From Pseudomonadota bacterium (GTDB lineage Bacteria; Myxococcota_A; UBA796; GCA-2862545), in contig SXOB01000006.1 in the NCBI GenBank assembly GCA_005776945.1, forward strand, positions 1-64,000: 64,000 nucleotides of DNA, written 5' to 3'. Every line of letters begins with the position of its first letter. Positions within the stretch are counted from its first letter, which is position 1. Made by a program: the position numbers and the translations under genes. The notes under the pieces were generated by a model. It was not told where the DNA came from. It searched no databases and saw only the letters and a program-made list of their open reading frames with translations. Below, one piece after another: positions 5,151 to 52,775 of this stretch.

Positions 5151-6542
5151 TTAATGGGTCCAGGCGATGTGATTGGCAGCGCGGCGCTCCCTGGAGGCCA
5201 GGGCACGCATGGCGGCGAGGTACAGGACCGTGGCGGGTTGGCCACGCTCCATCCCTTCGAGGTGAACGGCGTGCAGCGAGGCCGTAAGCCGAAGGCCCGC
5301 CGGCACGTGGGACGGACGCAATTCCTCGATCGCGACGCGAACGCGTTGTGCGAGGACCTTCGCGCCGCGACCGTCGGTCGGGACCGCGATGGTGAACGAG
5401 TCGGGTCCGACACGGGCGAGGAGGCATCCCTCAGGCAACAACGACGCCAACGAGGCCCCTACGGCCTCCAGCGCACGGTCCCCGGCTTCGAAGCCGAAGC
5501 GACCGTTGATCTCCGTGAATCCGTCGAGGTCAACCGCGAAGATCCATAGGTCGCGCCGCAAACGCAATGCCTCTTCGACGGCGTCGGCCAGTTCGCGCAG
5601 GAAGCGGCGTTGGGTCGGAAGGTGGGTGATGGGGTCCACATCCCAACCCTGCGCCACGGCTTCGCGCAGACGGAACACCTCGCGCTCGAGCGTGGCGGCG
5701 TGGTCGGCGACCTCCTGGCCATCGACGGGAAGTGACTCTCCTCCCAGGCCGATCGGCTCTGGAACCCCGGCGACGCCCACGGATGTGGCGAATCGCCCCC
5801 AAACATCGCGGACGTCGGCGAGAACAAGCCGTACAGCGCGATCGGACCAAGAAAAGGCCATCCCGGTGTTCGCGGCCCATCCCGTGAGTCGATCGGCGGC
5901 GTCGCCTTGCGCGAGCACGGTCGCCAGGTGCTCGGCGTGGTCAAGGAGGTCGGGCAGGCCCTCATCGGGCTCGCCATCGGCGATGGCATCGACGCCGGCA
6001 ATCACGTCATTGGGCAACCCCGTCCTCCGGGCCACCTCTCCGAAAGCCTCGCCGCGTGTCCGGCCAAACACGACCCGCTCGGCCAGACGTCGTTCCTCCC
6101 CGCGCTTCAAGCGAACGTCTCGCAGCCAGGACAGGTAGTAGGGCCGGTCGCGGAACAACTCGATGGTTCCGAGGTGCACGGCCATCGCCGTCGTCGCGGC
6201 GAGGTCTTCGGCAATTCCCAGGCGGCTGGCCGCAACGCGCGAAAACAAGCCCATGGTCAGGACGTCCTGCCAGAGCTTGCGGGCGACAAATCCCGGCAGC
6301 TGTGCGGTTTCGATACGCATCCGGACGATCTGCTGCACGGCCAATTGCGCCGTCACGACCGGACCGATCGCCCCCAAAGACCGCTCGTCATCGAACGCGC
6401 GGTTGCGCATCGACCCCAGATACCGGACCAGAACGGCCCGAAATCCAGGCGTTTGGTCCACCATGTGACTGAGGCGATTGAGCGCGCCGACCTGTCCATC
6501 GCCCGAAGCTTCAACGATGCGACGCAAAGAGACGAGGTCCAT
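5151..6542 (-). CDS. HDOD domain plus degenerate GGDEF regulator
   Basis: A 463-residue protein starting at ATG 6542 behind GGAG; open reading upstream is antisense to flhA. Residues about 10-210 look like an HDOD domain, a helical HD-related signalling fold. A linker follows, then a C-terminal GGDEF-type domain beginning at DPITHLPTQRRFLREL. The signature loop reads RVGPDSF instead of RGGDEF, so the second Gly and the Glu are gone. By family knowledge this predicts loss of diguanylate cyclase activity and a possible binding or scaffold role. It is the first gene of the leftward flagellar operon, 10 bp before fliJ, which suggests control of flagellar assembly or motility. Confidence 0.8.
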   Translation of the reverse strand: MDLVSLRRIVEASGDGQVGALNRLSHMVDQTPGFRAVLVRYLGSMRNRAFDDERSLGAIGPVVTAQLAVQQIVRMRIETAQLPGFVARKLWQDVLTMGLFSRVAASRLGIAEDLAATTAMAVHLGTIELFRDRPYYLSWLRDVRLKRGEERRLAERVVFGRTRGEAFGEVARRTGLPNDVIAGVDAIADGEPDEGLPDLLDHAEHLATVLAQGDAADRLTGWAANTGMAFSWSDRAVRLVLADVRDVWGRFATSVGVAGVPEPIGLGGESLPVDGQEVADHAATLEREVFRLREAVAQGWDVDPITHLPTQRRFLRELADAVEEALRLRRDLWIFAVDLDGFTEINGRFGFEAGDRALEAVGASLASLLPEGCLLARVGPDSFTIAVPTDGRGAKVLAQRVRVAIEELRPSHVPAGLRLTASLHAVHLEGMERGQPATVLYLAAMRALASRERRAANHIAWTH

Positions 6543-6579
6543 GGGGACTCCGCGCCTCCATCGGACCGCCGCTCCCGGA

Positions 6580-6615
6580 GTTGACCTCAACCCGCGAATA
6601 AAAATGACCCTCAAC
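6580..6615. promoter_or_regulatory. Repeats in divergent flagellar promoter region
   Basis: The 102-bp gap between the HDOD/GGDEF gene and flhA contains GTTGACCTCAAC at 6580-6591 (GTTGA/TCAAC arms around CC). A near-copy, TGACCCTCAAC, lies at 6605-6615. The A+T-rich stretch AATAAAAATGA between them stands out in this GC-rich DNA. This could be an operator or overlapping promoters serving both flagellar transcription units. No confident -10/-35 or sigma-54 element could be placed here. Confidence 0.3.
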
Positions 6616-6644
6616 TTTCCGCAGTAGGGCCCGAATGGGGCGCG

Positions 6645-8717
6645 ATGGCCCGCTCGCAGTCCCCTTCCCGCATCGACATCGTCCTCGCCGCTGGCGTTTT
6701 CGCCCTGATCGGCATCATGTTGGTGCCGCTGCCCGGCTGGGTGCTCGACTTGCTGTTGGCCGCAAGCTTCGGCACGAGCTTGCTGCTCTTTCTCGCGGCG
6801 CTGACCGCGCGACGCGCCGTCGAACTCAGTACCTTTCCCACCCTTCTCCTCATCGCCACACTCGTCCGATTGGGCCTGAACGTCGCGAGCACGCGCGTGA
6901 TCCTCCGCGACGGCGCCCACGGGACGCACGCCGCCGGACGGGTCATCGAGGCCTTCGGTCAATTCGTCGTTGGCGGCAATGCGGCGATCGGGATCGTCGT
7001 TTTTGCCATCCTGGTCGTGATCAACTTCGTCGTCATCACGAAGGGTGCCGGGCGCGTCGCGGAAGTGTCCGCCCGCTTCGCGTTGGACGCGATGCCAGGC
7101 AAGCAGATGGCCATCGATGCCGAGCTCAATGCCGGACTCATCGACGAAAAGGTCGCGCGTGCCCGACGTGCAGAGGTCGCGCGCGAGGCCGATTTCTACG
7201 GCGCGATGGCCGGCGCCAGCAAGTTCGTTCGAGGGGATGCCGTCGCTGGCATTCTGATCACGGTCGTCAACCTGGTAGGCGGCGCGTTCATTGGCATGAT
7301 GCAGCACGACATGGCCCTTGGCGATGCGCTGCACACCTTCGCCATCCTCACCATCGGTGACGGCCTCGCAGGCCAAGTGCCCGCCCTCATCGTTTCGACA
7401 GCCGCCGGCCTTCTGGTCACACGCGTCGACGACGCCGACAGCCCCGGCCTTGCGGAGGGCGTGAGAGCCCAGATCGCCGGGACGCCGCACCTGTTGTACC
7501 TTGGCGCCGGCGTCGTAGGCCTGTTCGCGCTCGTTCCAGGCCTGACGATTCCGTTTGCGGCGGTGGCGCTGGCGCTGTTCGGAATGGGTCGCATGGTCGC
7601 GGCCGACCTCGAAAAGCCGACCCCGCTACCCGCCGCCGCCCCGGTTCGGCCAAGTGAGATGGCCCCCGAGGACCTGCTTCCGGTCGATGCGCTCGCCATC
7701 GAGGTGGCTGCAGACCTGCTCTACCTGGTGGACGAGCGACATGGGGCAGAGTTGCTCCAGAGGATTGCCAAGGTTCGTCGGCAATTCGCGACGGATCTGG
7801 GCCTCGTCCTGCCCGCGATTCACGTCCGAGACGACCTCGACCTGCCAACGGGAGGGTATCGAATCGTCCTACGGGGCGAACCCATCGGCAGCGGCCGACT
7901 CCAGGCCCGACAGCACATGGCGCTCGACCCTGGCGGGGCCAAACCCGGACTCGGCGGCGTGCCTGGCCAGGACCCGGTCTTTGGCCTGCCGGCGACCTGG
8001 ATTCCGGCAGCCCTCGTCCAACGCGCCAACGACCTTGGCCACACCGTCGTCGACGTCCCTACGGTCGTCACGACCCACCTCGTCGAACTCATGCACGTTC
8101 ACGGAGCGGAGTTGTTCGACGCCGGCCAGCTCGACGCGGCGCTCGAACGGGTCACCGCCAAGCATCCCAAGCTCGTCGAGGACCTCGTCCCCGAGCCGGT
8201 TCCGCGCTTCACGCTGTTGCGCGTCCTGCGCGGTCTGCTCAAAGAGGACGTGTCCGTCCGCGACCTCGTTGGCATTCTCGAGGCGCTCTCCGAGGTCGCG
8301 GGACGCGCCAAGGACCCCGACCTGCTCGTCGAGCTCGTCCGCCAGCGACTTGCCCGGCCGATCAGTCGCCGATTCGCTGCCCCCGACAACACCCTCCCCG
8401 TGGTCACCTTCTCGCCGGCCATGGAAGACGTTCTCCTCCGAAGCCTGCTCACGAAGGACGGCTCCGCGCCGACGCTCGGCCTGGACCCCCAGACCGCACG
8501 CCACCTGATCATCCGGGCCCGCGAACTGACCGAATCTCACGCTGGCGCGACCCAGGCCGTCTTGTTGTGCCCGCCGCTTGCGCGCGGCGCCGTCCGCAAA
8601 CTCATCGAGCGCGCCTTGCCCCGGTTGCCGGTCCTGAGCGCGGCGGAACTCGTACCGTCCATCCGTTTGACCTCCGTCGGCGTCCTCGACGTGGACAAAG
8701 CGCTCAAGGCGTCCTGA
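6645..8717 (+). CDS. flhA: Flagellar export gate protein FlhA
   Basis: A 690-residue protein of normal FlhA length. The N-terminal half is an inner-membrane domain with about eight hydrophobic segments and the family's signature stretches (ELSTFPTLLLIATLVRLGLNV near residue 65, and DAMPGKQMAIDAELNAGLID in the FHIPEP loop). The C-terminal half is the cytoplasmic ring that docks chaperone-substrate complexes. FlhA is the core of the type III export gate. It starts at ATG 6645, divergent from the HDOD/GGDEF gene. flhB, fliP, fliQ and fliR are not in this window. Confidence 0.97.
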   Translation: MARSQSPSRIDIVLAAGVFALIGIMLVPLPGWVLDLLLAASFGTSLLLFLAALTARRAVELSTFPTLLLIATLVRLGLNVASTRVILRDGAHGTHAAGRVIEAFGQFVVGGNAAIGIVVFAILVVINFVVITKGAGRVAEVSARFALDAMPGKQMAIDAELNAGLIDEKVARARRAEVAREADFYGAMAGASKFVRGDAVAGILITVVNLVGGAFIGMMQHDMALGDALHTFAILTIGDGLAGQVPALIVSTAAGLLVTRVDDADSPGLAEGVRAQIAGTPHLLYLGAGVVGLFALVPGLTIPFAAVALALFGMGRMVAADLEKPTPLPAAAPVRPSEMAPEDLLPVDALAIEVAADLLYLVDERHGAELLQRIAKVRRQFATDLGLVLPAIHVRDDLDLPTGGYRIVLRGEPIGSGRLQARQHMALDPGGAKPGLGGVPGQDPVFGLPATWIPAALVQRANDLGHTVVDVPTVVTTHLVELMHVHGAELFDAGQLDAALERVTAKHPKLVEDLVPEPVPRFTLLRVLRGLLKEDVSVRDLVGILEALSEVAGRAKDPDLLVELVRQRLARPISRRFAAPDNTLPVVTFSPAMEDVLLRSLLTKDGSAPTLGLDPQTARHLIIRARELTESHAGATQAVLLCPPLARGAVRKLIERALPRLPVLSAAELVPSIRLTSVGVLDVDKALKAS

Positions 8718-8768: not shown

Positions 8769-9560
8769 ATGTTGCCACGCGCTTACAGCACCGCCATCGC
8801 CGCCGGCAGCACGACCCGTCTCGTCGAAGGGCTGACGCGAGACGCGGTTTGTGCACGGTACCAGCGCAAGGTGGTCCTCGTCGCCCGCAAGGTCTTCGAG
8901 CGCCTGAGCGTCGACGCCGCCACCACCCTGGAAGACCTGGCGGCCTGGGGCGCCATCGGCCTGCTGGAGGCCTTCGACCGCTACGACGCCACCCGCGGCA
9001 TCAAGTTCTCCACCTATGCCGAGTACCGAATCCGCGGCGCCATCTTCGACGCCCTTCGAACCCACGACACGTTCAGTCGGCGCCGTCGGCAACTGGCGCG
9101 TCGGGTCGAGCAGGCCACCGACGAGGCCCGCCGCCTCTTGGGACGCCTTCCTGAGCCGCAAGAAGTCGCCGACGCGCTGGAGGTCGACCTCGACACCTAC
9201 TGGTCAGCGGTCGGCCGAACGAGCCCCGTCAGCCTTGTCAGCTTGGAAGACTCGGACACGGAGGGGCGCCCGCTCGCGGAGCTGATTGAGGACGCGTCCT
9301 CGATGCGGCCGGGCGAGGCGATGGCGTCGGACGAAATTCGCGCGGAGTTGGGCGCAGCCATCGACTCGCTGCCAGAGCGCCAGCGCCAGATCGTGCTGAT
9401 GTACTACGCGAGGGACCTCAGCCAGGCTGAAATCGCCGCGGTCTACGGGGTCACCGTTTCCCGTGTCTGCCAGGTCCTGACGGACGCCAGGAACAAGCTC
9501 AAGGCGCGTTTGGCTGCGCAGCTCGGCGTCAGCGACCTTGCTGCATTGGAAGGTCGATGA
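8769..9560 (+). CDS. fliA: FliA/WhiG-type sigma-28 factor, copy 1
   Basis: A 263-residue sigma-70-family protein with regions 2, 3 and 4 only. Region 2 reads DLAAWGAIGLLEAFDRYD and GIKFSTYAEYRIRGAI, region 3 includes GRLPEPQEVADALEV, and region 4 reads LPERQRQIVLMYYARDLSQ with helix-turn-helix residues EIAAVYGVTVSRVCQ. In flagellar systems this factor transcribes late genes. It lies between flhA and flgF and its TGA overlaps the flgF ATG (ATGA at 9557-9560), so it is embedded in a middle or early flagellar operon. A second paralogue lies at 50365. Confidence 0.93.
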   Translation: MLPRAYSTAIAAGSTTRLVEGLTRDAVCARYQRKVVLVARKVFERLSVDAATTLEDLAAWGAIGLLEAFDRYDATRGIKFSTYAEYRIRGAIFDALRTHDTFSRRRRQLARRVEQATDEARRLLGRLPEPQEVADALEVDLDTYWSAVGRTSPVSLVSLEDSDTEGRPLAELIEDASSMRPGEAMASDEIRAELGAAIDSLPERQRQIVLMYYARDLSQAEIAAVYGVTVSRVCQVLTDARNKLKARLAAQLGVSDLAALEGR

Positions 9561-10234
9561 GCCGCGAGCAGTACGCGGCGGTCAGCGGCGCCAGTGCCGC
9601 GTGGCGGCGCATGGACACCGTCGCGCAGAACCTCGCGAACAGTTCGACCGTAGGGTTCCGCGGACAACGCGTCGCGTTCGAATTGACCGACCCCGCCGCC
9701 GGCCTCGTCGATGTCAGCGCGACCGTGGCCGATCGCCGCTCCGGCGCCATTCACAGCACGGGCAATGCGACGGATGTCGCGCTTCGCTCTCCCGGTTGGT
9801 TCGCCGTGGAAGGCGCGTCTGGCGCCATGTTGACACGGGCCGGCGACTTCCAAGTGCGGGCTGACGGTCGGCTCGTCACGGCGGGTGGCGCCTCGGTGCT
9901 GGGTCAGTCGGGCCCCATCGACCTGCCGATCGGCGAGTCGTTCGCGATCGAAGCGGATGGTCGAATCGTGGCTGAGCGCAGCGGCGAAATCGACCGGATT
10001 CGCGTCGTCGACGCGACGGCCGAACCCGCCGGCGGGAACTTGTGGCGCCCGACCGGACCCTTGACCGAGGTGACGCCGGATCTGGTCCAAGGTGCGCTCG
10101 AGGGAAGCAACGTCGATCCCCTTGCGATGATGGTGGAACTCGTCGAAGCAGGCCGCGCGTTCGAAATCTTCCAACAGGCCATCCGGGGCTCCGACGAGCT
10201 CGATGGCCGTCTCCACGAATTCGGAGGCCGCTGA
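9557..10234 (+). CDS. flgF: Flagellar proximal rod protein FlgF
   Basis: A 225-residue protein of the FlgE/F/G rod-hook family. It has the N-terminal heptad motif MDTVAQNLANSSTVGFRGQRVAFE and the C-terminal helix QGALEGSNVDPLAMMVELVEAGRAFEIFQQA. It is placed as FlgF rather than FlgG because the conserved FlgG gene follows immediately. The ATG overlaps the fliA stop. The stop overlaps the flgG ATG by one base (TGATG). Confidence 0.92.
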   Translation: MSREQYAAVSGASAAWRRMDTVAQNLANSSTVGFRGQRVAFELTDPAAGLVDVSATVADRRSGAIHSTGNATDVALRSPGWFAVEGASGAMLTRAGDFQVRADGRLVTAGGASVLGQSGPIDLPIGESFAIEADGRIVAERSGEIDRIRVVDATAEPAGGNLWRPTGPLTEVTPDLVQGALEGSNVDPLAMMVELVEAGRAFEIFQQAIRGSDELDGRLHEFGGR

Positions 10235-10986
10235 TGCGCGCTCTTTACACGGCTGCCACCGGCATGACGGCGCAGCAGACCCGGATCGACACGATCGCCG
10301 ACAACCTCGCAAACGCTGGCACAACGGGCTTCAAAAAGGGCCGCGCCGCGTTCGAAGACGTGTTCTACCAACAGATTGGCGGTGGCGGCACCACCAACGC
10401 GCGTGCCGACCGCGGGTCTGGCGTCCGCCTGGCCGGCCTGCAGAAAGACCACGTCCAAGGCTCGCTCACCGCGACCGGCGACCCCTACCATGTGGCTTTG
10501 GAGGGCCCTGGCTTCCTCGTCTTGGAAGACGCCGGCGGCCGGCCGCTCTACACACGCGACGGCGCCCTACGGCTCGATTCTGACGGCACGCTTGTGAGCA
10601 ACTCTGGCTGGAAGGTCAGAGGTGACGTCCGGATTCCTCTCGAAGCGACGGCCGTGACCATTGGCCCTGACGGAACGATCGAGGCGACGATGGACGGCGA
10701 AGCCGTCGCCATCGGCCAGGTCGAGTTGGCGCGATTCGTCAATCCAGCGGGCCTCCGCGCACGGGGTGGCAACGTCTACGAGACGGCGCCGGGGTCCGGC
10801 GACGCCATTCCCATCGACGCGGGCGAAGGGACGACCGTGCGACAGGGCTTTCTCGAGACGTCGAACGTCGACGCCGCCGAGGAACTCATCGAGCTGATTT
10901 TGGCCCAGCGCGCTTACGAGCTCAACAGCAAGGCCGTCCAGGCAGCCGACGAAACGCTGCAGACGGCGACCCAGTTGCGCCGTTGA
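10234..10986 (+). CDS. flgG: Flagellar distal rod protein FlgG
   Basis: A 250-residue protein beginning MRALYTAATGMTAQQTRIDT, followed by IADNLANAGTTGFKKGRAAFED, the classic FlgG N-terminus. The C-terminus has QGFLETSNVDAAEELIELI and QRAYELNSKAVQAADETLQTA, also diagnostic. It forms the distal rod crossing the periplasm inside the L and P rings. The ATG at 10234 overlaps the flgF TGA, which defines the start despite an open frame upstream. Confidence 0.97.
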   Translation: MRALYTAATGMTAQQTRIDTIADNLANAGTTGFKKGRAAFEDVFYQQIGGGGTTNARADRGSGVRLAGLQKDHVQGSLTATGDPYHVALEGPGFLVLEDAGGRPLYTRDGALRLDSDGTLVSNSGWKVRGDVRIPLEATAVTIGPDGTIEATMDGEAVAIGQVELARFVNPAGLRARGGNVYETAPGSGDAIPIDAGEGTTVRQGFLETSNVDAAEELIELILAQRAYELNSKAVQAADETLQTATQLRR

Positions 10987-11534
10987 CCGCTGAGGCCGCC
11001 CTCGCCGCGTTCGTCGTTGCCCGCTGTGGGGCCGCGGAGGTCGAGGTGCACAACTTGGGTTTCACGCCACCGTCAGGCGCGGTCCGCTTCGATGGGGACC
11101 CTTGCCGAGAGCGGCCTACGCTGCGTGCGTTTCACGAAGAGGGCACCTGGACCGTTCGCCCCCAACTTACGTTGTGGATGAACGGCGCCGTCGCCGAGGC
11201 CGATGCTCCCGCAGGCGGTCGGGTTGCAGCGATTCCGGGGCGCTACCGTCTCGCCGACCGCCTAGGGGAAGCTCTGCCCGTTGGGACTTGGCGGGCCGTC
11301 ACACCCGTGCGCGCGGGTGAACCCGTCGCGACGGGGCGGTTCGAACCCATTCCCCTCATTGCCTCGGGCGCGGAGGTCGACCTCGTCGTCCACCGCGGCT
11401 CGTTGACGATGGTCACCCCGGTCCGCTTGTTGGCGGACGCCGCCGCGGGTGCTCGCGTGCCCGTTCAAGTGTTGGCGACGGACCGCGTCGTCCAAGCCAC
11501 TGCCGTTGCGATGAATCGCGTGGAGCTGCCATGA
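10983..11534 (+). CDS. flgA: P-ring assembly chaperone FlgA
   Basis: A 183-residue protein starting at TTG, which overlaps the flgG stop (TTGA at 10983-10986). The C-terminal part carries the FlgA/SAF-type pattern (TPVRAGEPVATGRFEPIPLI, then a strand-rich segment ending GARVPVQVLATDRVVQATAVA). FlgA assists FlgI polymerisation around the rod in the periplasm. The N-terminal 18 residues are weakly hydrophobic and could act as a signal peptide. Position between flgG and flgH supports the call. Confidence 0.83.
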   Translation: MTAEAALAAFVVARCGAAEVEVHNLGFTPPSGAVRFDGDPCRERPTLRAFHEEGTWTVRPQLTLWMNGAVAEADAPAGGRVAAIPGRYRLADRLGEALPVGTWRAVTPVRAGEPVATGRFEPIPLIASGAEVDLVVHRGSLTMVTPVRLLADAAAGARVPVQVLATDRVVQATAVAMNRVELP

Positions 11535-12199
11535 TCGCGCTTCTGCTCACCCTCTCGTTCGCGGAAGCACGCAAGGCGCCGGCCGACCCGGAACCGCCGT
11601 CGCGTCCCGCGGTCGATGCGACCCCTCCCCTCCCTCCGTCGCCGGGGAGCCTCTTCGACGAGGTGGCTGCACGCCGGGTCATGGGTCTGGACGGAAATGC
11701 GCGACAGGTCGGCGACCTGATCACCGTCAAGATCGTCGAGGACGTCACCACGAACCTTGGCGCCGAGACGAAGAGCAGCCGCAAGTCGAGCCAGACGGCC
11801 GCGCTCAAGGCGCTGCTTGGCATGGAGAAGACGCTCAAGAAGGCGCACACGAATCTCGAGGAGATCGGCATCGACATCGCGTCGGCGAGCGAATTCGAAG
11901 GGTCTGGCGGGACGAGCCGGGAAGCGAACGTCGAAGCAACGCTCACGTGTGAGGTCCTCCAGGTCATGCCTGGCGGCAACCTCCACATCTGGGGGTGGAA
12001 GCAGGTCCGCGTGAATCGGGAGACGCAGTACGTGGTGCTCGAAGGCTATGCGCGGCCGCGCGACGTCCGAATGGACAACACCATCGATTCCGAGTTGCTC
12101 GCCCAAGCCAAAGTCGAAATCACCGGCTCAGGCATCATCAGCGACAACCAAGGGCCCGGCTGGGGCTCCCGCCTCATCAACGCCATCTGGCCGTTCTGA
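11531..12199 (+). CDS. flgH: L-ring protein FlgH, lacking lipobox cysteine
   Basis: A 222-residue protein with the FlgH core: RQVGDLITVKIVEDVTTNLGAET near residue 58, and a conserved C-terminus covering GNLHIWGWKQVRVNRE, QYVVLEGYARPRDV and NTIDSELLAQAKVEITGSG. FlgH is normally an outer-membrane lipoprotein. Here the N-terminus, MIALLLTLSFAEARKAP, has a hydrophobic core but no Cys, and no upstream in-frame start adds one. ATGA overlap with flgA fixes the start. flgI does not follow; the next gene is convergent. Confidence 0.92.
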   Translation: MIALLLTLSFAEARKAPADPEPPSRPAVDATPPLPPSPGSLFDEVAARRVMGLDGNARQVGDLITVKIVEDVTTNLGAETKSSRKSSQTAALKALLGMEKTLKKAHTNLEEIGIDIASASEFEGSGGTSREANVEATLTCEVLQVMPGGNLHIWGWKQVRVNRETQYVVLEGYARPRDVRMDNTIDSELLAQAKVEITGSGIISDNQGPGWGSRLINAIWPF

Positions 12200-49357: not shown

Positions 49358-50221
49358 ATGGGCTACGCACGAGAACACGTGCTGCAGGCGTTGCGAGACG
49401 CCGCAAGCAGCGATGCGGTCGAACTTCACTTCAAGGTCCCCAATCGCCCCTTGGTGCGGGTCACGGGTGGCGCCCTCGTTCCCACGTCGGGCCCCCCGCT
49501 CACTCCGTCCGACACGTCGGAGATCGCGCAGACGCTCATGCGCCTCGCCGGGGTGGAAATCCCGCTGGCCGGCGCACAGGACATCGACATTGGCCTCGGC
49601 CTGAGCGGTATCGGCCGCTTTCGCATCGCGATCTACCGCCAACGCGGCAGCGTGGCCGTCGTCGTCCGCAGTGTGGCGACGTCCATCCCTACCCTGGCCT
49701 CGCTGGGGGCCACGGCGCTCGATCCCCTCGTAGGACGCCCCGGCTTGCTCTTGGCGTGCGGGCCAATGCGGACCAACTTCCTCGCCGCGTGCGCCTCGGC
49801 GTACAACGCAAGGGAGCGCGGCCACGTCTCCATCATCGAGGGCCAACTCGGTTTCCTCCATCGCGATGGGATGGCGGCGATCGCCCAACGGGAAGTCGGC
49901 GTGGACGTGGCGACCCACGCGGCTGGCATCCGTGGCGCGATGCGCGTCGGATCCGACCTGATCCTCATCGACGAAATCCCCGATGCGGCCGCGGCCGACG
50001 CCCTTCTCGAGGCTGCCGAACGCGGATTCAGTACCGTGGCTGGCGTCGCGGCACCCACCGCCGACGAAGCCGCCTGGTGGCTCCTTCGGACGATTCCTGG
50101 AGAAAGCCGACCCGATGCGGAACGACGACTCACATCGGTTTTGACTGGAGTCGTCGCAATTGGGCCCGATGGAAGCCCCCATCATGTTCCGGGCACAGGG
50201 CTCCTCCCAGCCACGGCGTAG
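49358..50221 (+). CDS. PilT-like pseudo-ATPase
   Basis: A 287-residue protein aligning along its length with PilT/PilU retraction ATPases but with the catalytic motifs broken. Kept parts are DIDIGLGLSGIGRFRIAIYR (PilT N-domain), AIAQREVGVDVATHAAGIRG, and GSDLILIDEIPDA in the Walker B position with its Glu. Lost parts: Walker A reads GPMRTNFL with no GK[S/T], the Asp box reads IIEGQLGF instead of IEDPIEF, and the His box TLHT reads VAAPT. ATP hydrolysis is therefore unlikely. It is also shorter than PilT (about 350). It lies between hemD and a sigma-54-controlled FliA paralogue. Confidence 0.8.
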   Translation: MGYAREHVLQALRDAASSDAVELHFKVPNRPLVRVTGGALVPTSGPPLTPSDTSEIAQTLMRLAGVEIPLAGAQDIDIGLGLSGIGRFRIAIYRQRGSVAVVVRSVATSIPTLASLGATALDPLVGRPGLLLACGPMRTNFLAACASAYNARERGHVSIIEGQLGFLHRDGMAAIAQREVGVDVATHAAGIRGAMRVGSDLILIDEIPDAAAADALLEAAERGFSTVAGVAAPTADEAAWWLLRTIPGESRPDAERRLTSVLTGVVAIGPDGSPHHVPGTGLLPATA

Positions 50222-50290
50222 CGTATCTGAAACGATACCGGCGTATCCGAATTGACGCGCATGGATGGCCAGGTCGAGGGGGGACAAGAC

Positions 50291-50313
50291 AGTGAAACCT
50301 TCACTTTCAGTGA
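50291..50313. promoter_or_regulatory. Overlapping inverted repeats, possible activator site
   Basis: AGTGAA-ACC-TTCACT (50291-50305) is a perfect 6-bp-arm palindrome. It overlaps a second, TCACT-TTC-AGTGA (50301-50313). Both lie just upstream of the sigma-54 promoter. They could bind the enhancer-binding activator or a repressor, although they are closer to the promoter than many enhancer sites. Confidence 0.45.
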
Positions 50314-50322
50314 GTCGCGGCG

Positions 50323-50338
50323 TGGCACGACGATTGCA
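50323..50338 (+). promoter_or_regulatory. Consensus sigma-54 (RpoN) promoter
   Basis: TGGCACGACGATTGCA is a full match to the -24/-12 consensus TGGCACG-N4-TTGC[A/T], with GG at 50324-50325 and GC at 50336-50337. The start of transcription should be near 50349. The FliA-type sigma gene begins 27 nt past the element with AAAGGAG (50354-50360) in front of the ATG. The whole gap between genes is 143 bp. Confidence 0.85.
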
Positions 50339-50364
50339 TCGTAGGTGGGGAGAAAGGAGCGTGC

Positions 50365-51081
50365 ATGTTTGCCACCGCCGCCGCACCGGAATCCCAGGCC
50401 ACCGTCCTTGCGCACTACCCGATGGTTCGAGCCATCGCGTACCGGATCCACAGTCGCCTGCCTCGGTCGGTGGACGTGAACGATTTGGTGAGCGTGGGTG
50501 TGATTGGGCTGATGGAGGCGATCGAACGGTACGACGCGAACCGCTCGGTTCCGTTCGAGACCTACGCTCGCCATCGGGTCCACGGGGCCATTGTGGACGC
50601 GCTCCGTGCGGCGGACTGGGTTCCCCGCTCGGTTCGTCGCAAGGCGGACCGCATCGCCTGGACCCGCAAACAACTGCACGAGGACCTTGGCCGGGAGCCC
50701 ACGGCGGCGGAGATGGCAGCGAGCCTGGACGTGTCGACCGACGAATTCCAGACCCTGATGGACGCGTCGGAGATCCGCTCGCTCCTTTCGCTGGACGCCC
50801 CAGTGGCGACGGACAACTCGACGCCCCTCGTCGAGGTCGTACCGGACGACGCGGAGGACACCTTGGCCCGCTGGCAGCACGCCGAAGCGCGGGCAGCCAT
50901 TTTGGCGGCGGTCGACCAACTTCCCGAGCGCGAGCGTACGGCGATTGCGCTCTACTACCTGCACGAAATGAGCTTGAAGGATGTGGGCCGCGTGCTCGGT
51001 GTCACGGAGTCGCGGGCATGTCAGATCGCGGGATCGGCCGTAAAGCGCCTCCGGATGCGCCTGCGCGACCTGCTGACCTGA
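50365..51081 (+). CDS. FliA/WhiG-type sigma-28 factor, copy 2
   Basis: A 238-residue sigma factor of the FliA group. Region 2 reads VNDLVSVGVIGLMEAIERYD and VPFETYARHRVHGAIVDALR followed by ADWVPRSVRRKA. Region 3 reads LGREPTAAEMAASLDVSTDE. Region 4 reads LPERERTAIALYYLHEMSLK and DVGRVLGVTESRACQIAGSA. It is closer to canonical FliA than copy 1 (8769) in the DxVPRSVR segment. The sigma-54 promoter just upstream suggests a class-II position in a flagellar hierarchy, making this the better candidate for the late-gene flagellar sigma. Confidence 0.93.
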   Translation: MFATAAAPESQATVLAHYPMVRAIAYRIHSRLPRSVDVNDLVSVGVIGLMEAIERYDANRSVPFETYARHRVHGAIVDALRAADWVPRSVRRKADRIAWTRKQLHEDLGREPTAAEMAASLDVSTDEFQTLMDASEIRSLLSLDAPVATDNSTPLVEVVPDDAEDTLARWQHAEARAAILAAVDQLPERERTAIALYYLHEMSLKDVGRVLGVTESRACQIAGSAVKRLRMRLRDLLT

Positions 51082-51224: not shown

Positions 51225-52775
51225 GTGTCCACCGCCATCCAGCCGGCCGGTGCCGGCGACGTCCTGGGCGCTGTGCGCGCCGTGCGCACGACCATTCACG
51301 TCCTGCGACTCCCCGCGGGCCATTGCGCCGTCTCTGCCCACCGGCCCGACGATGCGTCTCTGGTCGCCACGATTCCCGCCACGTGGCCTGAGCACTTGGG
51401 TGGACCCGATTTCACCTCGGCCCACGGTTGCCGATTCCCTTACATCGTCGGCGAAATGGCGAACGGCATCGCGACGGCCCGAATGGTCGTCGAGGCGGGT
51501 CGAGCCGGATTCCTCGGCTTCTTCGGCGCCGCCGGATTGTCGCTGCCCTCCATCGAGGCTGGCCTCGACCAGATCGAGCGCGACCTGGGTCCCACGGGCC
51601 TGCCCTGGGGCATCAATCTCATCCACTCGCCCAATGAGCCCGACCACGAAGCGGCGACTGTCGACCTGTACCTCCGGCGCCGCGTCCGCCGGGTCAGCGC
51701 GAGCGCCTACATGGGTCTCACGCCCTCGATCGTCCGCTACGCTTTTTCCGGCGCGCGTCGGGATGCGAGTGGCGCCATCGTGCGCCCCAACAGCGTTTTC
51801 GCGAAGGTCAGCCGCCCGGAGGTCGCCGGTCGATTCCTAGCGCCGCCTCCCCGCGAAATGCTCCAAGGCCTCGTGTCTCGCGGCGATCTGACGGAAGACG
51901 AGGCCCGCTTGGCCGCGGCACTCCCCGTGGCCGAGGACCTCACCGTCGAGGCCGATTCGGGTGGGCACACCGACAACCGACCGCTGGTCGCGATGTTCCC
52001 CTTGCTCGCTGCCCTGCGCGACCGCGCCGTGGCCGCGACAGGCCGTCCCATACGCATTGGTGCCGCGGGAGGCCTTGGCACACCGACCTCCGTCGCCGCC
52101 GCCTTCCAATTGGGCGCAAGCTACGTCATGACGGGCTCCGTCAACCAAGCGGCGGTCGAATCCGGCCTGAGCGAAGTCGGACGCCAGATGTTGGCTCGCG
52201 CTGGAATCGCAGACGTCGTCATGGCGCCCGCGGCCGACATGTTCGAGTTGGGCGTCAAGGTCCAAGTCCTGCGCCGCGGCACGATGTTCGGCGTTCGCGC
52301 TCACCTGTTGTACGACGCCTATGTCTCCCATCCGTCGATCCAGGCCCTGCCCGGCCCCCTCCGCGAGCGGTTGGAACGCGAGGTGTTTCGCCGGCCCCTC
52401 TCGGAAATCGTCGAGGAGACGCGTGCCTTCTGGGCTCGCCGCGACCCCCGCGAAAATGCCAAGGCGGCCACGGACCCCAAACACGAGATGGCACTTGCCT
52501 TCCGCTGGTACCTTGGCCTGAGCAGCCGTTGGGCGATTGCCGGGGACGCGGACCGCGCCATGGACTACCAAATTTGGGCGGGCCCCGCACAAGGCGCCTT
52601 CAACGATTGGGTCGCCGGAAGCTTCCTCGAGGCACCCGAGGCCCGCACGGTGGCGCAGATTGGGCGCAACCTGCTCGAGGGCGCGGCCCAAATCGTCCGC
52701 TGCCAACAGCTGAGGCTCGCCGGCGTCGCCGTACCCCCAGCGGCGTGGCAGATCGCCCCTCGACCGCTCGGATAG
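51225..52775 (+). CDS. pfaD: PfaD-family enoyl reductase-like protein
   Basis: A 516-residue protein of the PfaD / 2-nitropropane-dioxygenase-like FMN TIM-barrel family. It has GEMANGIATARMVVEAGRAG, FLGFFGAAGLSLPSIEAGLD, ALPVAEDLTVEADSGGHTDN, IRIGAAGGLGTPTSVAAAF, YVMTGSVNQAAVESGLS, and the long C-terminal extension with DPKHEMALAFRWYLGLSSRW that separates PfaD from plain nitronate monooxygenases. In PUFA and trans-AT polyketide pathways PfaD acts as a trans enoyl reductase. No PUFA or polyketide synthase is in the window. Confidence 0.88.
   Translation: MSTAIQPAGAGDVLGAVRAVRTTIHVLRLPAGHCAVSAHRPDDASLVATIPATWPEHLGGPDFTSAHGCRFPYIVGEMANGIATARMVVEAGRAGFLGFFGAAGLSLPSIEAGLDQIERDLGPTGLPWGINLIHSPNEPDHEAATVDLYLRRRVRRVSASAYMGLTPSIVRYAFSGARRDASGAIVRPNSVFAKVSRPEVAGRFLAPPPREMLQGLVSRGDLTEDEARLAAALPVAEDLTVEADSGGHTDNRPLVAMFPLLAALRDRAVAATGRPIRIGAAGGLGTPTSVAAAFQLGASYVMTGSVNQAAVESGLSEVGRQMLARAGIADVVMAPAADMFELGVKVQVLRRGTMFGVRAHLLYDAYVSHPSIQALPGPLRERLEREVFRRPLSEIVEETRAFWARRDPRENAKAATDPKHEMALAFRWYLGLSSRWAIAGDADRAMDYQIWAGPAQGAFNDWVAGSFLEAPEARTVAQIGRNLLEGAAQIVRCQQLRLAGVAVPPAAWQIAPRPLG

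Follow-up and report, generated by a model that had tools for sequence, protein, structure and literature searches.

If one genome encodes two flagellar sigma factors of the FliA type, which of them comes first, and what drives it? The window (by which we mean the whole 64-kb stretch of DNA analysed here) contains two such genes, which we call fliA1 and fliA2 (table 1). The gene at 50365, fliA2, had been taken for a FliA-type sigma factor in the initial annotation, and its profile scores agree: 230 bits with NF005413 (FliA; cut-off 201) and 228 bits with TIGR02479 (cut-off 189.6). FliA1, at 190.6 bits, only just passes the cut-off of TIGR02479 and, at 173.8 bits, falls below that of NF005413. 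In a tree built from the FliA-type genes of 58 genomes of the same order, the two paralogues form separate groups (split 100/100) and are, as judged from this tree, old and separate lineages. The gene order flhA-fliA1-flgF-flgG is kept in most relatives having FliA1.

Table 1. Positions of the fliA1 and fliA2 genes and their predicted control elements in the window.
Feature	Position	Strand	Description and basis
GGDEF-HDOD protein gene	5151..6542	-	463 aa, divergent from flhA; PF00990, PF08668
Sigma-28-type promoter, divergent	6560..6584	-	TCAACTCC-N12-CCGAT, serving the GGDEF-HDOD gene
Sigma-28-type promoter before flhA	6611..6635	+	TCAACTTT-N12-CCGAA
flhA	6645..8717	+	Export gate, opening the fliA1 operon; TIGR01398 746 bits, PF00771
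fliA1	8769..9560	+	Divergent FliA/WhiG paralogue, 263 aa, between flhA and flgF; own clade 100/100
flgF, flgG, flgA, flgH	9557..12199	+	Remainder of the fliA1 operon
Candidate enhancer	50222..50239	+	CGTATC-TGAAAC-GATACC, for a sigma-54 activator; centre ~118 bp before the predicted start; conservation
Second, partial copy of candidate enhancer	50241..50251	+	GCGTATCCGAA; direct repeat, 20 bp (~two helical turns) past the first
Overlapping palindromes	50291..50313	.	AGTGAA-acc-TTCACT-ttc-AGTGA; present, not conserved
Sigma-54 promoter	50323..50338	+	TGGCACG-N4-TTGCA (spacer ACGA); exact consensus, conserved
Ribosome-binding site	50353..50359	+	AAAGGAG, before the fliA2 ATG; read from sequence
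fliA2	50365..51081	+	Canonical sigma-28 (FliA), 238 aa; NCBIfam, Pfam Sigma70 r2, r3, r4

What drives fliA2? Sigma-54 promoters carry a GG at -24 and a GC at -12, and transcription starts about 11–12 nt past the -12 GC. The full, correctly placed -24/-12 match reported ahead of the gene stands: the consensus is exact, the site lies 26 nt from the ATG and, with its -12 GC at 50336–50337, it predicts a start near 50348 and a leader of about 16 nt. This is the sole zero-mismatch match to TGGCACN5TTGCW in the window, where some 0.04 would be expected from base composition (an estimate); with up to two mismatches the pattern is found 20 times against 21.0 expected, which is chance level. Across the genome a strict form of the pattern gave 7 matches against 1 in the reversed control, and a looser form 14 against 48. 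With an excess for the first and none for the second, the genome-wide scan for TGGCAC-type sites that had been suggested is weak evidence when taken by itself, and we dropped such counts as proof of a sigma-54 promoter.

We regard the site before fliA2 as real because it is conserved. Calling a site at a score of at least 0.88 on a simple consensus score, we found one upstream of 29 of the 70 FliA2-side genes, where dinucleotide shuffles would give 0.25, and upstream of none of the 31 FliA1 genes (best score 0.81). The earlier proposal that one FliA is under RpoN while the other lies inside the flhA-flgF operon is supported by this difference. In the same-genus orthologue (L018) the site reads TGGCACGGTTTGTGCT and lies 48 nt ahead of the matched start. 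Counted by genomes, the site precedes a FliA2 gene in 10/12 of family f1, 5/6 of f4, 3/4 of f6, 1/2 of f3, 1/2 of f5 and 1/16 of f2, that is, in 20 of 26 genomes outside f2. In f2 the predicted site is lost almost entirely; two FliA2-side genes of that family (L149 and L152, in G038 and G021) have a sigma-28-type element and no sigma-54 site, and it is possible that a sigma-28 loop has replaced RpoN control there. We conclude that control of FliA2 by RpoN and an activator, as predicted here, is very well supported by conservation.

Other putative sigma-54 sites were seen along the way. One genome (G042) has five FliA2-side sigma genes (L041, L127, L129, L131 and L164), with a site before all five. 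In the window's genome a Flp-type pilin gene, recognised by eye, has an exact site immediately ahead of it (L016, G000:C91:147944), and RpoN probably serves Flp pili too. A sigma-54-like site, TGGCACGCCACCTGCA, precedes a rubrerythrin-like gene, also identified by eye (L096, G000:C91:1919, and L077); adjoining it is a divergent sigma-54 activator gene (C91:755-1246).

Where might the activator of fliA2 bind? Sites for sigma-54 activators typically lie about 100 bp upstream. A palindrome, CGTATC-N6-GATACG, situated some 60–120 bp upstream, is common to the sigma-54-type FliA2 promoters. At a match of at least 9/12 it is present in 23 of these 29, against 2.0 expected from shuffles, as well as in 2 of the 41 FliA2 promoters that lack the sigma-54 site and in 1 of the 31 FliA1 promoters; the count is partly circular, the motif having been derived from the same promoter set. 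An independent view is given by scanning the 58 genomes in full: of 13 strict copies, five stand 88–123 bp before the sigma-54 site of a FliA2 gene. In the window's genome (3.88 Mb in 92 contigs, 90.5% complete) the core GTATC-N6-GATAC occurs once, at 50223–50238. This conserved palindrome is very probably the enhancer at which a sigma-54 activator would act. The genome has one copy of rpoN and ten genes with strong matches to PF00158, the candidate activators; five of the ten were checked with Pfam, four of these having receiver domains, and no single candidate among the ten stood out as the regulator of fliA2. The conserved candidate enhancer provides a direct handle for finding the activator. 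The overlapping palindromes noted directly upstream of the sigma-54 site do exist, as AGTGAA-acc-TTCACT (50291–50305) and TCACT-ttc-AGTGA (50301–50313), but the same-genus orthologue does not have them. They were therefore left out of the conserved control region and ruled out as the activator site.

The gene directly upstream of fliA2 (49358–50221) is a degenerate relative of PilT-like ATPases (TIGR01420, E 2e-35, far under the cut-off; no Pfam match), and one like it precedes FliA2 in G001 and G012 as well. Co-transcription with this gene was rejected as the main explanation for fliA2 expression because the control region between the two is conserved. Downstream of fliA2 is a gene (51225–52775) resembling PfaD/trans-acting enoyl reductase (PF21607, PF03060), which may point to neighbouring genes for making a polyunsaturated fatty acid or a polyketide. 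In G012 and G005 (L050 and L051), FliA2 lies downstream of fliI and of an EAL-HDOD protein, which ties it to flagellar and cyclic-di-GMP genes.

If RpoN acts on fliA2, what acts on the flagellar operons themselves? A sigma-28-type promoter has a TAAA-like -35 element, a fixed spacer and a CCGATA-like -10 element. The flagellar operons of the window's genome were located by pattern and family searches, with flgB, fliE and fliH identified by position and by eye, and TCAA-N16-CCGA(T/A) lies ahead of seven or more of them. The pattern TCAANTN14CCGAW has 20 matches in this genome, against 5 in the reversed control. Some stand just ahead of flgE, fliN, flhA, flgI, motA and the divergent GGDEF-HDOD gene, and also precede the groups flgB-flgC-fliE-fliF-fliG-fliH-fliI and flgM-flgN-flgK-flgL-fliC-fliD-fliS. 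The other matches at gene starts belong to a weak PilZ protein and to three proteins without an assigned role; about eight of the 20 are intragenic and apparently due to chance. The two flagellin genes have weaker matches only, with a 17-nt spacer, and no such site was found before flgD, which may be internal to an operon. Across the 58 genomes, 22 of the 84 distinct readable matches to a stricter pattern precede recognisable flagellar genes, among them flgD, flgI, fliF, fliN, flhA and fliA1.

The element before flhA has been kept: in the window, as in 14 of 18 relatives, TCAA-N16-CCGA stands 34–85 nt ahead of FlhA, one of these relatives (L173) having a TTAA form read by eye. It was not found before flhA in four genomes of family f4, where sigma-54-type FliA2 genes are nevertheless present. 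We also looked within 600 nt of flhA for a sigma-54 promoter that might serve its operon with fliA1; there was none in any of the 18 genomes with enough sequence (best score 0.85), and the idea was dropped. In the window's genome no sigma-54 site was detected within 300 nt of flgB, flgE, fliN, flgI, motA or flgM either (best 0.80). For the activation of rod and hook genes by RpoN that known cascades show, no site is seen at these operons, which have sigma-28-type promoters instead. A serial route from RpoN through FliA2 to the operons therefore fits better than one in which RpoN acts on the structural genes beside FliA.

How does this compare with the cascades already described? In Vibrio cholerae, FlrA and RpoN activate fliA, RpoN also transcribes the MS-ring, export and hook genes, and FliA acts late (PMC3930126). 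The predicted action of RpoN and an activator at fliA2 resembles that arrangement; the early and middle operons do not, since RpoN promoters of the Vibrio type are not seen at flhA in the 18 genomes or at the six other operons named above. In Geobacter sulfurreducens the top-scoring RpoN site precedes the operon flhA-flhF-parA-fliA-flgG-flgA, RpoN control of fliA is predicted, and RpoN drives early structural operons too (PMC2725144). There, as here, a fliA lies within an operon running from flhA to flgG-flgA, but in our genome the operon with fliA1 has a sigma-28-type promoter and it is the separate fliA2 that RpoN would drive. Might FliA2 nevertheless serve late genes only, with the early operons transcribed by sigma-70 or through some other regulator and with the TCAA-N16-CCGA elements secondary? 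A fliA under RpoN has precedents, one established in Vibrio (PMC3930126) and one predicted for Geobacter (PMC2725144), and FlgM is present, as late-gene timing predicts. Yet the clearest sigma-28-type sites precede early and middle operons (flhA, flgB, fliN, flgE and flgI), and that of flhA recurs in 14 of the 18 relatives; we consider a late-only role unlikely.

Which of the two paralogues, then, reads these promoters? Residues R74, D81, R91 and R94 of E. coli FliA, which we take to be promoter contacts, are kept in both. FliA2 also keeps the motif DWVPRSVRR of E. coli FliA. In the FliA1 clade this is replaced by a DTF(S/T)RRRR-like stretch, in which W-V-P-R-S-V is missing, and E218 of the -35 helix is changed; the two paralogues differ clade-wide at 88–93 and 218. 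From these sequences FliA2 appears the better candidate for canonical promoters; FliA1, sharing the four contact residues, may read them too. We infer that the sites are functional and that those of the TCAA/CCGA type are read by FliA2 and not by FliA1 alone.

These differences at 88–93 and 218 could also mean that the two factors have separate outputs, FliA1 reading the flagellar TCAA-N16-CCGA promoters and autoregulating its own operon while the RpoN-driven FliA2 serves another programme. FliA1 does lie inside a flagellar operon with a sigma-28-type promoter, and fliA2 in the window has no flagellar gene adjoining. On the other hand, FliA2 genes stand beside fliI, flgE or flgD in five relatives (G005, G012, G013, G008 and G043), the canonical FliA motif is found in FliA2, and FliA1 alone cannot account for the start of its own operon; a division of this kind seems to us quite improbable. 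The remaining alternative, that the sigma-54 match arose by chance and that transcription of fliA2 comes from elsewhere, for instance together with the PilT-like gene, draws on the chance-level count of two-mismatch matches in the window and the lack of excess in the looser genome scan, and is for practical purposes refuted by the conservation of the site at 29 of the 70 FliA2-side genes and by the palindrome common to their upstream regions.

The cascade that we favour, from RpoN through FliA2 to the flagellar operons, would run as follows. A sigma-54 activator would bind CGTATC-N6-GATACG about 118 bp upstream of the predicted start and, with RpoN, activate transcription of fliA2 from TGGCACG-N4-TTGCA. 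FliA2 would in turn direct transcription from the TCAA-N16-CCGA promoters of the flagellar operons, early ones included; its proposed targets are flhA-fliA1-flgFGAH, flgBC-fliEFGHI, fliN, flgE, flgI, motAB and flgM-flgNKL. FliA1, whose gene shares an operon with flhA, is produced alongside the export gate and would probably prolong or widen flagellar transcription at a second tier, a role that we infer. What rests on sequence and conservation is the sigma-54 site, its association with FliA2 as opposed to FliA1, the upstream palindrome and the presence of sigma-28-type sites before early operons. For this genome and its family, the step from FliA2 to the TCAA-N16-CCGA operons is likely; for families f2 and f4 the case is weaker. 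The whole chain, from activator and RpoN through FliA2 to early and late operons including fliA1, is probably correct here. It is not order-wide, since f4 lacks the element before flhA and the sigma-54 site before FliA2 is found in 1 of the 16 f2 genomes. The suggestion that the two sigma-28 factors occupy different tiers survives in part: FliA2, unlike FliA1, is linked to RpoN, and the tree splits the pair fully, but their roles have changed, the RpoN-driven gene being the canonical FliA and the flhA-embedded gene the divergent paralogue. More tentatively, at somewhat less than an even chance, RpoN may control a single flagellar gene, fliA2, whose product would be the master regulator that turns on early, middle and late operons alike, with FliA1, co-produced with FlhA, as the next tier.

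Two further systems offer partial precedents. The FliA of Bdellovibrio bacteriovorus, whose promoter TTAAG-N16-CCGATA is close to TCAA-N16-CCGA, is a proposed regulator of most genes of the attack phase (PMC3627812) and gives a precedent for a FliA regulon reaching far beyond late genes; RpoN control of that FliA and a second FliA paralogue are not described in the parts of that report consulted. Plesiomonas, according to the portion of the account consulted, has two FliAs (FliA/FliAL) with polar and lateral flagella (PMC11242183); two paralogues per cell are found here too, but with one flagellar gene set in the stretches examined. RpoN control of fliA (Vibrio, Geobacter) and a broad FliA regulon (Bdellovibrio) are thus already known. 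In the open literature we found no description of two FliAs, one of them RpoN-driven, with early operons under sigma-28, and a restriction of RpoN to a single FliA of the pair, with predicted sigma-28 promoters at early operons, looks new.

What would such an arrangement mean for flagellar assembly? In textbook cascades sigma-28 comes last, being released once the hook is complete. Should the cascade in this lineage begin with FliA2, and should its early operons depend on sigma-28, it would run in a different order from the models in PMC3930126. Two sigma-28 factors could then solve a conflict, that of an FlgM-inhibited sigma factor making the export gate that removes FlgM, and these bacteria would provide a natural case for asking why two sigma-28 factors persist.
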